From Pseudomonas sp. GM78 (GTDB taxonomy: Bacteria > Pseudomonadota > Gammaproteobacteria > Pseudomonadales > Pseudomonadaceae), in NCBI RefSeq assembly GCF_000282475.1, contig NZ_AKJF01000067.1:1-55560 (forward strand): 55,560 bases of DNA. Direction: 5' to 3'. The notes under the pieces were generated by a model. That model did no database searches and was not told the DNA's origin. It saw only the letters and a list, made by a program, of their open reading frames with translations. Both the position numbers and the translations under genes were made by a program. This document shows positions 16,977-23,644 of the stretch, piece after piece (position 1 is the stretch's first letter; the number at the start of each line of letters is the position of its first letter).

Positions 16977-17615
16977 TCAATCGTCCGAGGTCTTGTGCTT
17001 GTATTCGCACAAGTCTTCGATCCGGCAACTGCCGCAGCGAGGCTTGCGGGCCAGGCAAACGTAACGTCCATGAAGGATCAGCCAGTGATGGGAGTCGAGC
17101 AGGTACTCCTTGGGCACGAACTTCATCAATTTATTCTCGACCTCGACCACATTCTTGCCGGGCGCGATGCCGGTGCGGTTGCTGACCCGAAAAATGTGGG
17201 TGTCCACGGCCATCGTCAATTGGCGAAATGCAGTGTTGAGCACCACGTTGGCGGTCTTGCGGCCTACGCCGGGCAAGGCTTCCAGTTCCTCGCGGGTCTG
17301 CGGCACTTCACCGGCATGACGCTCAACCAGCAGGCGGCAGGTCTCGATCACGTTTTTGGCCTTGCTGTTGTACAGGCCGATGGTCTTGATGTATTCGGAC
17401 AATCCTTCGACGCCCAAGGCATGAATCGCCGCCGGCGTGTTGGCAACCGGAAACAGTTTGGCCGTGGCCTTGTTGACGCCGACATCGGTCGATTGCGCCG
17501 AAAGAATCACTGCAATCAGCAATTCAAAGGGTGAGGAGTAGGCCAGTTCGGTCTTCGGTTCCGGATTGTCTTCATGCAGCCTGCGGAAAATTTCCAGACG
17601 TTTTGCAGCGTTCAT
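16977..17615 (-). CDS. nth: endonuclease III
   Basis: Base-excision DNA glycosylase/AP lyase that removes oxidised pyrimidines, 212 residues, full length. The helix-hairpin-helix LEALPGVGRKTANVVLNTAF carries the catalytic Lys (GRK), and the catalytic Asp lies in MAVDTHIFRVSNR. The [4Fe-4S] cluster cysteines follow the C-x6-C-x2-C-x5-C pattern in CLARKPRCGSCRIEDLC. It lies 25 bases downstream of rnfE and probably ends the rnf transcript, an order shared with E. coli and P. aeruginosa. Confidence 0.97.
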   Translation of the reverse strand: MNAAKRLEIFRRLHEDNPEPKTELAYSSPFELLIAVILSAQSTDVGVNKATAKLFPVANTPAAIHALGVEGLSEYIKTIGLYNSKAKNVIETCRLLVERHAGEVPQTREELEALPGVGRKTANVVLNTAFRQLTMAVDTHIFRVSNRTGIAPGKNVVEVENKLMKFVPKEYLLDSHHWLILHGRYVCLARKPRCGSCRIEDLCEYKHKTSDD

Positions 17616-17640: not shown

Positions 17641-18228
17641 TCAGTGTGAGGGCGGCGGGCGGTGCCAGGCTTGCCAGGCGGCGATCAGTAATCCCAACAG
17701 TATGAAACCGCCAGGAGCCAGCGTGGCCAGGCGCAAGCCACCGTCAGCGGTCAGCACCCAGCCCTGCCAATCGGCGTGCGTCGCAGCAGCCAGCCACGGC
17801 AGATGATTGCCGAGTGTTCCGTAGCCAATGAGTTCGCGCAGAAGGCCCAGGCCCACCATCAATGCGCCGAACAGGCCACAGAGGCGCCAACGTTCGCGCC
17901 AGGGGCTCTGGAAGAAATCATTGCGCTCCAGCACGACGCATTGCAAGGCGATCAAGCCGGCATAGATCCCGGCATGCTGATGCCATTGCAGCGACCAGAC
18001 CTGCGCGCCGAGTTCTGCGCAACTGGTCAGCGTTGCTGCAAGCAATACGCTGGCCGACAATTGGGTCGCCGGGAGCAGCCGCGAGCGCAAGGCGTTCATG
18101 CAGAGGCCAAAAGCACTGGTCACCACAATGAACATCACCCACAGGCCCAGGGCACTCACCAGTGAGCCGGTGGCGCCAATCAGCGGCGCGAGCATCAAGG
18201 AGTTCTGCAACCACAACGCTTTAGTCAT
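17641..18228 (-). CDS. rnfE: Rnf/Rsx complex membrane subunit E
   Basis: Integral inner-membrane subunit of the ion-coupled electron transport complex, about 195 residues with six predicted helices. RnfA and RnfE face opposite ways and together hold a [2Fe-2S] cluster in the membrane; the Cys in AFGLCMNALRSR and another in SCAELG fit this pattern. ATG 18228 is chosen: it overlaps the rnfG stop by eight bases, as expected for coupled translation. Compared with better-known RnfE the C-terminal third is divergent. It lies between rnfG and nth. Confidence 0.88.
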   Translation of the reverse strand: MTKALWLQNSLMLAPLIGATGSLVSALGLWVMFIVVTSAFGLCMNALRSRLLPATQLSASVLLAATLTSCAELGAQVWSLQWHQHAGIYAGLIALQCVVLERNDFFQSPWRERWRLCGLFGALMVGLGLLRELIGYGTLGNHLPWLAAATHADWQGWVLTADGGLRLATLAPGGFILLGLLIAAWQAWHRPPPSH

Positions 18229-18832
18229 CTGGAGGGCTCCCAATCAGTGAGCGCCGGTGCTCATCGAAATAGCGCAAGGCATCATGGGTGGCCTGGATCA
18301 CCGCTCTTGAAGTGATGGTCGCTCCCGCAATCTGGTCAAACTGTCCCTGGTCCTTTTTCAAAGCCCAGGCGTTGTCACCCGGATCGGTTCGCGACCTGCC
18401 GGCAAAGGCCTCAAGCCAGGCATTGGGCCAGTCGGCGATGCGTGCGCCGAGCCCTGGGGTTTCCGTTTGCTTGAGGGTTTTGACCCCCAACACTCTGCCG
18501 TCGGTATCGATGGCGATCAGCAAGTCGATGGCGCCCTCGTAGCCCAGGGTCTGGCTGCGCAGCAGCACGGCACAGGCTCGGCCGGCCTTGGTCGCGCGGT
18601 AACCCGCCAACAGCGTGCTGTTGCCCAGCGTGGTGTTTTCGAGGCTGAGCGGTTGTTCCAGCGGTTGATTGTCATAGCTGTCGGGCGGTAGCAGGTCCAG
18701 CAGGTTGCGACTGTCGATCAGACGCTGTTCAGCCGCAATCCGTGGCGCGCTGCCCTGCTGCGCGAGATAGGTCAGGCCAGCCCCGAGGGTGGCCAGTAAT
18801 GTCAGGATGACGGCGCTCGACGCTCGGCTCAT
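18221..18832 (-). CDS. rnfG: Rnf/Rsx complex FMN-binding subunit G
   Basis: Periplasmic subunit carrying a covalently attached FMN, 203 residues. A single N-terminal membrane anchor (VILTLLATLGAGLTYLA) is followed by the FMN-binding domain; the flavinylation motif is AGATITSRAV with the acceptor Thr172. The motif LKQTETPGLGARI earlier in the chain is the family signature. It overlaps rnfD by four bases (ATGA) and rnfE by eight. The same frame runs on far upstream, but only as a shadow of rnfD. The flavin attachment site is intact, so the protein looks functional even though rnfC is missing. Confidence 0.93.
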   Translation of the reverse strand: MSRASSAVILTLLATLGAGLTYLAQQGSAPRIAAEQRLIDSRNLLDLLPPDSYDNQPLEQPLSLENTTLGNSTLLAGYRATKAGRACAVLLRSQTLGYEGAIDLLIAIDTDGRVLGVKTLKQTETPGLGARIADWPNAWLEAFAGRSRTDPGDNAWALKKDQGQFDQIAGATITSRAVIQATHDALRYFDEHRRSLIGSPPDD

Positions 18833-19815
18833 GGTGCGCGCAGCTCCTGCCTGGCCGCGACAAGCCGCTCCAGCGCCGGTACACAGAGGTTCATCAACAG
18901 CACGGCAAAGGCCACGCCGTCCGGGTAGCCGCCCCAGGTGCGAATAAGGTAGGTCAGCAACCCCACGCCGGCACCAAACAGCAATCGCGCACCCGGGCTT
19001 TTTGCACCGGACACCGGTTCCGTGACGATGAAGAAAGCGCCCAGCATGCTGGCGCCGGTGAGCAGATGAAACAGCGGCGATCCGTGAGAGTCTGAGCCCG
19101 AACCGTTCCAGCACAACAGGCTGATGACGAACAGGCTGGCGAGCATGCCGACTGGCGCGTGCCAGCTGAATACGCGACGTTGCAGCAAAAACGCGCCGCC
19201 GGCGAGAAAGGCCAGGTTGACCCATTCCACGCCGCGGCCACCGAATTGACCAAAGGCCGGATTTGCCGAGAACAGCTCGTCCATGGTCAGGCTTTTGTTG
19301 ATCCGCAGGCTGTCCAGTGCCGTGGCCCGCACCCAGGCGTCCGGGCCCTGGCCTGCACCGAACACCTGCTGCACCCCCCCCCACAGGTCCATGCCATGGG
19401 CGGCGGGCCAATGGGTCATCTGTTGTGGAAAGGTCACCATCACCAGGGCGAAACCGAGCATCGCCGGGTTGAACGGATTGCTGCCGACCCCGCCGTAGAG
19501 GTGCTTGCCGAACAACATCGCAAGCGCGGCAGCGCTGACCGTCATCCACCAGGGGCAATAGGGCGGCAAGGCCAGGGCCAATAGCGTGGCGCTGACCAGG
19601 GCGCTGCCGTCGCTCAAGGTCGGCTTGAGCGCGCGCTTGCGCAATCGCAACACCGCCGCTTCCGCGGCTAATGCACTGGCGCCTGCCAGAATCAGGTTGA
19701 TCAACACCCCCCAGCCGTAGAACCAGAACAACGCCAACATCCCTGGCAGCGTCGCCAGTAGAACCAGTTTCATCGCCTGCTGAAGGCGTAAATCGACCGG
19801 TTCAAGGGGCGGCAT
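18829..19815 (-). CDS. rnfD: Rnf/Rsx complex membrane subunit D
   Basis: Integral inner-membrane subunit with a covalent FMN, about 328 residues and eight to ten helices, homologous to NqrB. The likely flavinylated Thr is about residue 165 in WVRATALD, at the place of the usual SGAT motif but with Arg-Ala before the Thr. Landmarks such as [16 protein letters not shown] and [19 protein letters not shown] are well kept. ATG 19815 is chosen because AGGTGG stands six bases before it; ATG 19821 is possible. It overlaps the rnfB 3' end by 14 bases, with no room for rnfC. A run of nine G (coding strand) at 19382-19374, about codon 145, could slip and shift the frame. Confidence 0.92.
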
Positions 19816-20824
19816 GGGCATCCACCTGGCGTTCGGCTTCGCCCAGGGCGCGCTCCAGGGCTTCGATCTGCTCCGCGGGTGTGGCGCTGGCCTGGGCTTT
19901 CTTCAGTTCGGCGCGGCGCATGGCCAGCTGGATTTTCGCCCGTTTCAGTTCGGCGTCCTTCGCTGGAGCCGACACGGGGGCAGGGGCCGTCGGTGCAGCG
20001 CGTTCCAGTTGGGCCAAGGCTTGCTCGGCGGCTTCGAACTGCTGTTGCAGGACAATCAGCTGCGATTGCTGTTCGAAGGTCGGCGGATGACCAAAGGCCT
20101 TGAGCGACTTGTTCAATTGCGCCCGGCTCATCGCCAGGTCGACCTTGGCTTTTTTCAGGGCAGCATCGGCGTTCGCCGCCTTCTGCGCGCGCACGCGTTC
20201 CAGGGCTGCCTGTACCGGGTCGAGCGGAATATCTGCGTGTGCCGGGCTGGGTTGGGCGCTCCGTTTCGCACGGGCTTCCCGCTCGGCAGTTTTTTGTTGT
20301 TCTTCACGCTGCAAGCGGGCGTTGCGCTGCTCGAAACGGCGCCGAGCATGGTTGCGTTTGGCGGCACGGGCCCGTTGCTCTTCCAGGCTGAAAGCCAGGC
20401 CACCGACTATCGGTAGCACGCCGCTCAAGGGCAGTGGATGCATTTCGATGCAGTCCACCGGGCAGGGCGCCACGCAGAGATCGCAACCGGTGCATTCGTC
20501 GATGATGACCGTGTGCATCAACTTGGCCGCACCGACGATGGCATCCACCGGACAGGCCTGGATGCATTTGGTGCAACCAATGCACTCCGCTTCACGGATA
20601 AAGGCGATCTGCGCCGGGGCCGAACCGCGACTGACGTCCAGTTCCAGCACCGGCACGTTCAACAGTTCGGCCAGGGCGTTGATGGTTTCACTGCCGCCAG
20701 GCGGGCATTTGTTGATCGGCTCACCGCTGGCGATGCCTTCGGCGTACGGCTTGCATCCGGGGTGGCCACACTTGCCGCATTGGGTTTGCGGCAAGAGGGC
20801 GTCGATGCGTTGAATCAGACTCAT
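19802..20824 (-). CDS. rnfB: RnfB-like iron-sulphur protein with RnfC-like tail
   Basis: 340 residues. The RnfB part has the [4Fe-4S] signature Cys16, 19, 24 and 40 ([11 protein letters not shown]) and two ferredoxin clusters, Cys81/84/87/91 and Cys111/114/117/121. Unlike standard RnfB it lacks the N-terminal membrane helix and begins directly at the first cluster domain. From about residue 146 it changes to a long charged, Ala-rich coiled tail ([20 protein letters not shown]) that looks like the C-terminal tail of RnfC, not of RnfB. The tail holds two related units of about 50 residues (219-274 and 289-335), both beginning A-x-LK-x-AK-x-x-LAM-x-RA. No rnfC gene follows. A fusion after loss of the RnfC core is one reading; an independent tail is another. 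It overlaps rnfA by four bases. Confidence 0.88.
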
Positions 20825-21390
20825 GTTTTGATCAGCCCGCTGAATCCGAGAAAGGCCACTGCAATCAGGCCGGCACCGATCAGGTCGATCGGCAGGCCGC
20901 GAAAGGGCAGGGGCACATCGTTGTCGAGTGTGCGCTGGCGCAAGTCATGGAACAGACTCAGTACCAGCCAGAAGCCCAGCCCGGCACCGATGCTCAAGGC
21001 TGTAGCGTGAAAAAATCCTTTGTCCTCCCGAGCATTGAGCAAGGCCACGCCGAGCACCCCGGCATTGCACAGCAGCAACGGCCAGAGGCCTTCGAAAGAC
21101 AATGTTGAAAATACCCGTGCCAGCAGATTCAACAACGGGCCGATCAGCAGCGCACTCAATGGCAGAAACACAAACAGGTGCAGCGCCGTCAACGCCAGCG
21201 GTACCAGCAGCCATTGATAGAACGCATAGCCGAGCACCCCGGTGATCAGCATCAGGCAGGTCGTCGCGATGCCCAGGGCGTGGACCTGGCGACGTTCGCT
21301 GCCCAAGAGCGGATCGACACCCAGCGGCCAATGCAACACGAGGTTGTTGAGCAGGGCGGTGCTGATGAGCGCAAGCAGGGTTTCGGTCAT
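20821..21390 (-). CDS. rnfA: Rnf/Rsx complex membrane subunit A
   Basis: Integral inner-membrane subunit, 189 residues with six helices, paired with RnfE. The N-terminal [20 protein letters not shown] matches the RnfA pattern of LLxNNxVLxxxxGxCP with the Cys replaced by Val-Asp, and another cysteine occurs in [12 protein letters not shown]. RnfA normally brings a Cys from each half for the membrane [2Fe-2S] cluster, so the loss of the first one deserves attention. ATG 21390 is chosen over an upstream in-frame codon at 21411; the site before it is weak. It is the first gene of the cluster and follows a REP-type repeat. Confidence 0.85.
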
Positions 21391-21415
21391 GATCGTCCGT
21401 ATCCGTCGCATAACC

Positions 21416-21518
21416 CTGTAGGAGCTGCCGCAGGCTGCGATCTTTTGATTTTGCTCTTAAAAAAGCCAAGATCAAAAGATCGTCCGAACGCGGCCCGAGC
21501 CTGCGGCAGCTCCTACAG
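21416..21518. repeat. REP/BIME-type inverted repeat
   Basis: Perfect 21-base arms (21416-21436 and 21498-21518, ending in CTGTAGGAGCTGCC and its complement) with a second inner pair, GATCTTTTGAT (21439-21449) and ATCAAAAGATC (21471-21481). It lies between rnfA and metG, outside any gene. Confidence 0.88.
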
Positions 21519-21542
21519 AGATAGTATGGGCCAGACATGAAA

Positions 21543-21592: not shown

Positions 21593-23644
21593 TTACTTGA
21601 TCCGCTGACCAGGCTTGGCGCCGCTGTCAGGGCTCAGCAGGTAGATTTCTTCACCGCCAGGGCCGGCCGCCATCACCATGCCTTCGGAAATCCCGAACTT
21701 CATTTTGCGCGGCTTGAGGTTGGCGATCATCATCGTCAGGCGACCATCGAGCTTGGACGGGTCCGGATAAGCGCTCTTGATCCCGGAGAATACGTTGCGC
21801 TGCTCGTCGCCGATGTCCAGGGTCAGGCGCAACAGCTTGTCGGCGCCCTCCACGTGCTCGGCCTTGACGATCAGGGCGACGCGCAAATCGACAGCCGCGA
21901 AGGTGTCGAACTCGATCTCCGGCGACAGCGGATCCTTGGCCAGTTCGCCGTTGCCGGCAGGTGCGGCTTCGCCGGTGTCGGTCTGACTGGCGGTCAGGTC
22001 TTCTTTCGAAGCGTCGGTCATGGCTTGCACTTTTACCGGGTCGATACGGGTCATCAGCGGCTTGAACTCGTTCAACTGATGGTTGGCGAGCAAGGTCGCG
22101 TGGTCGTTCCAGGTCAGCGGCGCGACGTTAAGGAATGCCTCGGCATCGGCGGCCAGCAGCGGCAGCACTGGCTTGAGGAAGATCACCAGTTGACGGAACA
22201 GGTTGACGCCGGTGGCGCAGATGGCCTGGACTTCTTCCTGCTTGCCTTCCTGTTTGTTCAGCGACCACGGCGCCTTGTCGGCAATCCAGGCGTTGGCACG
22301 GTCGGCCAGGCCCATGATCTCGCGCATGGCGCGGGCAAAGTCGCGGGCTTCATAGGCATCGGCGATGCTTGGCGCGGCGGCCAGGAACGCTTCGGTCAGC
22401 TCCGGCGCGGCGTTGGTCTCGACCATCACCCCGGCATTGCCCTTGTTGATGAACCCGGCGCAACGGCTGGCGATGTTGACGACTTTGCCGACCAGGTCGG
22501 AGTTGACCTTCTGCACGAAGTCTTCGAGGTTCAGGTCCAGGTCGTCGACGCCACGGCTCAGCTTGGCCGCGTAGTAGTAGCGCAGGTATTCCGGCGACAG
22601 GTGATCCAGGTAGGTCCGGGCCTTGATGAAGGTGCCGCGGGACTTGGACATTTTCTGGCCGTTGACGGTCAGGTAGCCGTGTACGTTGATGCCGGATGGC
22701 TTGCGGTAGCCGGCGCCTTCGAGCATGGCTGGCCAGAACAGGGCGTGGAAGTTGACGATGTCCTTGCCGATGAAGTGGTACAGCTCGGCGGTGGAATCCT
22801 TGCCCCAGAACGCGTCGAAGTCCAGCTCCGGCGTGCGGTCGCAGAGGTTCTTGAAGCTCGCCATGTAGCCGATTGGTGCGTCCAGCCACACGTAGAAATA
22901 CTTGCCCGGCTCGTCGGGGATTTCAAAACCGAAGTACGGCGCATCGCGGGAGATGTCCCACTGTTGCAGGCCGGCATCCAGCCATTCGGCGATCTTGTTG
23001 GCCACGGCGTCCTGCAGGGTGCCGCTGCGGGTCCAGGATTGCAGCATTTCCTGGAAGTCCGGCAACTTGAAGAAGAAGTGCTGGGAGTCCTTGAGCACCG
23101 GGGTGGCGCCGGAAATCGCCGACTTCGGATCCTTCAGGTCAGTCGGTGCGTAGGTCGCGCCGCATTTTTCGCAGTTGTCGCCGTACTGGTCTTCGGTGCC
23201 GCATTTCGGGCATGTGCCCTTGATGAAGCGGTCGGCCAGGAACATTTTCTTTTCCGGGTCGAAGTATTGGGTGATCGAACGCGTGGCGATGTGCCCGGCG
23301 TCGCGCAGCTTCAGGTAGATCTGGCTCGACAGTTCACGGTTTTCTTCGGCGTGAGTGGAGTGGAAATTGTCGAAATCCACCAGGAACTCGGCAAAGTCGG
23401 CGCTGTGTTCAGCCTGGACGTTGGCGATCAGTTGTTCAGGGGTGATGCCTTCCTTTTCCGCGCGCAGCATGATCGCCGAACCGTGGGCGTCGTCGGCGCA
23501 GACATAAATGCATTGGTTGCCGCGGTGCTTCTGGAAGCGCACCCACATATCGGTCTGGATGTATTCCAGCATGTGGCCAAGATGGATCGAACCATTGGCA
23601 TAGGGCAGGGCGCTGGTGACGAGGATCTTGCGTGGCTCGGACAT
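21593..23644 (-). CDS. metG: methionyl-tRNA synthetase
   Basis: Class I aminoacyl-tRNA synthetase charging tRNA-Met, 683 residues, the long form. The HIGH motif appears as HLGH in [11 protein letters not shown], the KMSKS loop as [10 protein letters not shown], and the zinc knuckles as [17 protein letters not shown]. The C-terminal 100 residues are the extra EMAP/Trbp111-like tRNA-binding dimerisation domain ([21 protein letters not shown]). It is divergent from mrp, with 151 bases between start codons, and ends in its own terminator. Confidence 0.97.

Follow-up and report, generated by a model that had tools for sequence, protein, structure and literature searches.

What an Rnf cluster can still do once rnfC is gone is the question raised by a locus in Pseudomonas sp. 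GM78 (assembly GCF_000282475.1, contig NZ_AKJF01000067.1). The window analysed covers positions 1 to 55,560 of the forward strand of this contig (55,560 bases), and the cluster, made up of rnfA, rnfB, rnfD, rnfG and rnfE, lies at 17641..21390. According to the part of PMC12174285 used here, electrons in the RNF complex pass from ferredoxin to RnfB, then through the RnfA/RnfE pair, RnfG and RnfD to RnfC and nicotinamide adenine dinucleotide (NAD; NADH when reduced). Because RnfC and the RnfA/RnfE cluster are both gone, this textbook path cannot run as described. Our results point, with a probability of about 0.6, to a divided and reduced Rnf, in which a flavin-only relay of RnfD and RnfG would work without NADH or membrane iron–sulfur coupling, beside an independent soluble RnfB.

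The cluster and the search for RnfC

The genes lie on the minus strand in the order metG, rnfA, rnfB, rnfD, rnfG, rnfE, nth. Their features are as follows.

20821..21390, minus strand: rnfA, 189 residues, with D26 and A110 instead of cysteine at two [2Fe-2S] ligand positions
19802..20824, minus strand: rnfB, 340 residues, a 4Fe-4S protein with 12 ligand cysteines and no N-terminal membrane helix
19805..20434, minus strand: C-terminal tail of RnfB (residues 131–340), homologous to the C-terminal tail of Pseudomonas RnfC
18829..19815, minus strand: rnfD, 328 residues, with Thr165 at the expected flavin mononucleotide (FMN) site in the context VRAT
18221..18832, minus strand: rnfG, 203 residues, with an FMN-binding domain and Thr172 in AGAT; the sole PF04205 match in the genome
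17641..18228, minus strand: rnfE, 195 residues, with A14 at one ligand position and the other ligand, C97, kept
16977..17615, minus strand: nth (endonuclease III), the downstream flank
21593..23644, minus strand: metG, the upstream flank, named from its sequence and used as a species marker

With ATG 19815 taken as the start of rnfD, the rnf genes overlap by 4, 14, 4 and 8 bases; the alternative ATG at 19821 would give an overlap of 20 bases between rnfB and rnfD. An earlier sequence-only reading of the window had reported the order A, B, D, G, E and nth, the same overlaps, the flavin threonine of RnfG and all 12 cluster cysteines of RnfB, and our analysis agrees with it on each of these points. 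Three features described below go beyond that reading: cysteines lost from RnfA and RnfE, an RnfB lacking its membrane helix, and an RnfB tail resembling that of RnfC.

A profile search matched all five proteins to Rnf families. The curated cut-offs were passed by RnfB (TIGR01944), RnfD (TIGR01946; 362.6 bits, cut-off 207.05) and RnfG (TIGR01947). RnfA scored about half of its cut-off (TIGR01943; 112.9 against 229.3 bits) and RnfE about a third (TIGR01948; 62.3 against 213.4 bits).

The absence of rnfC, also noted in the earlier reading together with a call for a genome-wide search, was borne out: no RnfC over the cut-off was found in the 7.29 Mb, 235-contig assembly (completeness 100). Three weak matches to the RnfC model (55.4, 25.4 and 25.8 bits; cut-off 245.95) were NuoF, a formate-dehydrogenase-beta-like protein and NuoI, names given from their sequences alone and without a family search. 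An Nqr complex was considered as a partner and rejected, because within GM78 the RnfD/NqrB model had no match apart from the RnfD of the window.

The RnfA/RnfE site and the remodelled RnfB

Four cysteines of RnfA and RnfE hold a membrane [2Fe-2S] cluster in RNF, as stated in the part of PMC12174285 used here. We read off the ligand places by alignment to solved RNF structures. In the window they are occupied by Asp26 and Ala110 of RnfA and by Ala14 and Cys97 of RnfE, so that only C97 of the four ligands is kept. The same pattern was found in the RnfC-less clusters of the genus (one genome, G034, being excluded from these counts): cysteine occurred in 0 of 77 rows at either RnfA place (one row gapped at the first), in 0 of 88 at the first RnfE place, and in 86 of 88 at the second. 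All four cysteines were present in 19/19 complete Pseudomonas clusters. Displaced cysteines were also rare, with 0 and 2 of 77 rows having one within three columns of the RnfA ligand places, and Asp26 of RnfA was present in 58 of 66 rows from ABDGE clusters (cluster types are written by their rnf gene letters). Because three of the four ligands are lost in RnfC-less clusters, the canonical membrane [2Fe-2S] cluster cannot form in them. The statement of the sequence-only reading that the complex does not look decayed therefore did not hold.

RnfB has changed at both ends. The window RnfB matches TIGR01944 only from model position 35, and its N-terminal membrane helix is missing. The match begins at position 1–2 in complete clusters and at 18–37 in the RnfC-less and orphan RnfB proteins listed. 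Because the aligned RnfB starts were chosen near that of the window, the absence of the helix in relatives rests on these model matches and on the upstream residues of 12 loci.

At the other end, phmmer matched RnfB residues 131–340 to the RnfC C-terminal tails of 19/19 complete clusters (E values from 1.6e-24 to 2.9e-50), though with strong composition bias. A block-shuffle test of eight RnfB tails against the long RnfC tails of two complete-cluster loci (L152 and L158; L and G numbers denote loci and genomes) gave z-scores of 8.4–33.4 in the 16 comparisons. For the short RnfC tail of L142, z was below 2 for seven of the eight RnfB tails, and for the window it was 3.6, below its best shuffle. 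In basal RnfC-less genomes, RnfB carries a nearly complete last part of RnfC. Thus, judged from these sequences, the RnfB tail is likely the scar of a deletion that joined rnfB to the end of rnfC. A structure prediction of RnfB (mean predicted local distance difference test score 61.3), with the tail mostly as confident helix and the iron–sulfur part poorly modelled, was used no further.

Distribution, descent and selection in Pseudomonas

We surveyed 149 genomes of the genus, GM78 included, drawn evenly from a larger group. Matches over the cut-off were found for RnfC in 25 genomes, RnfD in 107, RnfB in 130, the flavin transferase ApbE in 117 and FMN_bind in 110. Counting G034, whose RnfD is split in two frames, as present brings the RnfD total to 108/149. 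The locus was a complete ABCDGE cluster in 19 genomes, ABDGE in 78, ADGE in 11, rnfB alone in 33 and empty in 8. A cluster without rnfC is thus present in 89/149 genomes. In 83 of these no RnfC over the cut-off was found anywhere; the other six (G021, G022, G057, G072, G093, G103) carry RnfC in a second, different cluster.

For the ABDGE type, the fetched stretch included metG, on the strand of the cluster, in 67/78 genomes, ten stretches being too short and metG lying further off in G120; the cluster of G076 is split across two contigs. The order metG–rnfB–nth was kept in 33/33 rnfB-only genomes, with up to 1.05 kb from metG to the rnfB frame, and metG and nth were 65–473 bases apart in 8/8 empty genomes. 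We also used an alignment of RnfC-less RnfD to scan named genomes. The best 80 of 564 relatives, a set weighted to close kin, were all Pseudomonas, and 79 of them had no rnfC signal between B and D. The remaining one (L312), in which another reading frame encodes part of the RnfC tail, was scored as having no RnfC body. Among the species represented are P. umsongensis, P. frederiksbergensis, P. mandelii, P. brassicacearum and P. chlororaphis. The RnfC-less cluster is a lineage-wide state and not peculiar to the window genome.

In the metG protein tree of the 149 genomes, a fully supported branch has 123 genomes on one side (73 ABDGE, 31 B only, 11 ADGE, 8 none and 0 complete); the other 26 comprise 19 complete clusters, 5 of the ABDGE type and 2 with B only. 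The best tree requires 16 changes of state for ADGE, 5 for RnfB and 12 for ApbE. By their RnfD plus RnfG sequences (88 rows, G034 excluded) the RnfC-less clusters group in one clade (99*). A single origin is therefore enough, and several origins of the RnfC-less state within Pseudomonas, which we considered, are not needed. Five RnfC-less genomes (G120, G123, G013, G028, G054) lie inside the complete-cluster metG clade while their RnfD and RnfG fall in the RnfC-less clade, which suggests transfer of the cluster or old coexistence of the two forms.

The 11 genomes with ADGE but without RnfB over the cut-off and the 33 with RnfB alone make RnfB and RnfADGE two separable modules. RnfB is therefore not needed for ADGE to persist. 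This, together with the lost helix and the RnfC-like tail of RnfB, goes against the earlier view of an otherwise intact complex. That reading had also named pseudogenes in relatives as evidence that would refute it. Relatives bear this out in part, with clean losses in 41/149 genomes, an RnfE remnant and the frameshifted G034, but pseudogenes are not the rule. The frameshifts of G034 (L178) are in rnfD and apbE, and assembly errors are possible. The remnant (L190:4814-4906, genome G006) is 31 residues of RnfE beside an orphan rnfB, in a genome that has lost ADGE and still has ApbE; there the loss of ADGE was probably recent.

Selection was measured as the ratio of nonsynonymous to synonymous substitution rates (dN/dS) by a simple pairwise method, using pairs with dS of 0.1–0.8 only. 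L127 (contig edge), L178 (frameshifts) and L199 were left out; L054–L063, whose flanks were cut, do not figure in the rows for RnfA, nth and metG, and their metG was obtained separately. Median dN/dS in ABDGE clusters was 0.26 for A, 0.11 for B, 0.13 for D, 0.19 for G and 0.23 for E (metG 0.07, nth 0.035). The corresponding values in complete clusters were 0.09, 0.09, 0.21, 0.33 and 0.15 (metG 0.12, nth 0.09). The 11 ADGE genomes gave 0.23 for A, 0.26 for D, 0.13 for G and 0.39 for E (8–30 pairs), and RnfB of rnfB-only genomes gave 0.125 (8 pairs). Single pairs reach 0.9–1.1 for A and E. All five rnf genes are under purifying selection, and the dN/dS values that the earlier reading had called for (medians 0.11–0.26) bear out its view that the genes are maintained.

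Because the baselines differ between complete and RnfC-less clusters, we compared dN/dS as ratios of medians to metG. From complete to RnfC-less clusters this ratio rose from 0.7 to 3.6 for A, from 1.2 to 3.2 for E and from 0.7 to 1.5 for B, whereas it was unchanged for D (1.7 and 1.8) and G (2.7 and 2.6). Mean identity fell from 0.94 to 0.62 for A, from 0.91 to 0.73 for B and from 0.86 to 0.45 for E, with metG at 0.90 and 0.93. Constraint has thus loosened most on the A/E iron–sulfur pair and to some degree on RnfB, with no measurable relaxation for the flavin subunits.

Two further observations belong to these genomes. A two-gene pair, rnfC-like and rnfD-like, lies at L143:2579-4923, and similar pairs occur in 7/149 genomes (G021, G057, G060, G072, G082, G093, G103). 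The pairs of L143, L144 and L164, compared with the window proteins, have no rnfA, B, G or E alongside, and apbE adjoins the pair in five of the seven genomes (not in G060 and G082). In the window, the gap between metG and rnfA holds inverted repeats with arms of 26 and 16 bases (21411-21523), which resemble repetitive extragenic elements.

Function, rival explanations and related systems

The flavin side of the complex is the part that is retained. RnfG has the PF04205 domain with the threonine of its GAT motif kept, and covalent FMN attachment is predicted from the sequence. GM78 encodes a single FMN_bind protein, RnfG, and a single ApbE. Across the survey, ApbE was found in 108/108 genomes with RnfD and in 9/41 without it. 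Among seven independent pairs on supported branches, ApbE changed in the same sense as ADGE in 4.9 on average and in the opposite sense in 0.

These results can be arranged as follows. The ancestor would have been a metG–rnfABCDGE–nth locus, from which the body of rnfC was deleted, and the deletion would have joined RnfB's ferredoxin domain to the tail at the C-terminal end of RnfC. The complex may then have split into two modules. One would be the helix-less RnfB with its RnfC tail, which persists alone in many species; the other would be RnfADGE, whose A and E have lost the ability to bind the canonical membrane [2Fe-2S] cluster. The FMN-site threonines of RnfG and RnfD are retained, and the two proteins, which co-occur with the ApbE maturase, may both carry covalent flavins. 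RnfADGE would most likely act at the inner membrane as a one-way flavin relay between a partner on the membrane or cytoplasmic side at RnfD and a periplasmic partner at RnfG, and it would work without NADH chemistry or coupled ion pumping. More specifically, and only tentatively, RnfADGE might be a conduit in which the RnfD and RnfG flavins pass electrons, through the membrane or along it, to a periplasmic acceptor and A and E serve as a scaffold without membrane iron–sulfur cluster, while the freed, tailed RnfB would be an independent cytoplasmic carrier.

Several results weigh against the flavin relay. The RnfD motif is mostly QAT or similar and not [S/T]GAT, complete Pseudomonas clusters included (VRAT in the window), which leaves flavin attachment to RnfD uncertain. 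For ApbE, the sign test gave a median p of 0.0625 (range 0.031–0.5) and is suggestive only. Nine genomes keep ApbE without RnfD, which implies other uses of ApbE in some of them; two of the nine have NqrB. According to the part of PMC12174285 used here, RnfD lacks the N-terminal helices that form the quinone site of NqrB, and a quinone as partner therefore has no direct support. Mean identity also falls for D (0.85 to 0.72) and G (0.75 to 0.56) from complete to RnfC-less clusters. RnfE Cys97 (86/88 rows), together with Cys70 (78/88 RnfC-less rows), may form an altered metal site. Many branches of the metG tree are weak, and the 16 changes of ADGE on the best tree indicate that it is dispensable in many species.

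The co-retention of B and D in 78/149 genomes could instead mean that the tailed RnfB docks at the old place of RnfC and passes ferredoxin electrons to the riboflavin of RnfD, making B, D and G one complex without an A/E cluster. The RnfC-like nature of the tail fits this, as does the contact of the RnfC tail helix with RnfB and RnfH in A. vinelandii (described in the part of PMC12174285 used here). However, each module is found without the other, in 11 genomes with ADGE and 33 with RnfB, and we consider such docking unlikely. Somewhat less likely again is that the cluster is a slowly eroding relic without important function. The repeated state changes of ADGE, RnfB and ApbE, the lost iron–sulfur ligands, the fast divergence of RnfA and RnfE, the RnfE remnant of L190, and dN/dS values above those of metG and nth for all five genes would be expected of a relic. 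Median dN/dS nevertheless stays at 0.11–0.26, D and G, measured against metG, show no more relaxation than they do in complete clusters, the gene overlaps are kept in the window, and the FMN-site threonines and ApbE are retained.

The sequence-only reading had suggested a donor other than NADH or the use of an unlinked protein. This would be a normal Rnf, with an NADH module supplied in trans (NuoF-like or other) or with entry of electrons at RnfB through an intact wire. The reading was right that RnfC is absent, with none found elsewhere in the genome, and that the genes are maintained, and the RnfB clusters and the RnfG flavin site are indeed intact. An otherwise intact complex fed by another donor is nevertheless very improbable, given a genome with no RnfC, A and E without three of their four cluster ligands, and an RnfB without its membrane helix. 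The flavin relay beside a separate RnfB remains our preferred explanation.

We also searched 274 genomes of the class, in which RnfD passed the cut-off in 171 and RnfC in 158, and looked at six of the genomes with RnfD but without RnfC over the cut-off (L280–L285). L280 and L281, from one genus outside Pseudomonas, have the ABDGE order between metG and nth, with RnfB fused to the RnfC ferredoxin domain and tail (L280:4750-5721, minus strand; L281:3537-4550, plus strand) and all four A/E cysteines present. They resemble the window in that the rnfC body is gone between B and D and RnfB is joined to the C-terminal part of RnfC, but they keep the RnfC ferredoxin domain, the RnfB N-terminal helix and the four cysteines; here the NADH module and nothing else was apparently lost, in an independent event. 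In the other four, a contig end lies upstream of D (L282, L283), D and G only are found (L284), or an RnfC end lies at a contig edge (L285).

RnfB alone is also found elsewhere. We chose 20 loci among the best RnfB matches outside the genus, and 13 had RnfB alone near nth or metG (L260–L262, L264–L269, L271–L273, L275; nth in the stretch for 12, metG only for L273), the other seven carrying more, RnfC included. Lone rnfB is thus common outside Pseudomonas, and B often outlives the other rnf genes. L260 belongs to another family of the order that includes Pseudomonas; its orphan RnfB has a long tail, which suggests that tailed RnfB extends beyond Pseudomonas. The NCBIfam models PRK06991 and PRK08764 typically describe orphan RnfB proteins elsewhere in the Proteobacteria. 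Over residues 2–270 the window RnfB matches PRK06991 with more bits (245.5) than TIGR01944, but it does not reach the cut-off of 281, and differs from that type in having RnfADGE still beside it.

The window cluster shares with the RNF complex (RnfABCDGE; Rsx in E. coli) the metG–rnf–nth locus of complete Pseudomonas clusters, the A, B, D, G, E order, the RnfG FMN site and the 12 RnfB ligand cysteines. It differs in having no RnfC body, and thus not the six subunits, in the loss of three of the four A/E [2Fe-2S] ligands, and in an RnfB that lacks the membrane helix and ends in an RnfC-like tail. Meheust et al. (2021, PMC8238504), in the part used here, described NQR/RNF-like partial systems, primarily in Actinobacteria and the candidate phyla radiation, in which RnfD/NqrB is fused to an NqrF-type NAD domain. 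These also have only part of the RNF electron path and ApbE-dependent flavins, whereas the window RnfD is PF03116 only, without a PF00175 fusion, and is kept with A, G and E. No description of RnfC-less Pseudomonas clusters was found in the titles and abstract starts of open-licence PubMed Central papers, which is no proof of absence in print, and the term rnfABDGE had zero matches among such papers.

Rnf is described as a six-subunit redox pump, of which a large group of Pseudomonas retains parts only. These genes should therefore not be annotated as a ferredoxin:NAD pump. The repeated losses show which parts of Rnf persist alone, and so amount to a natural dissection of the complex. In this lineage it can be tested directly whether the flavin half works when the iron–sulfur half is missing.

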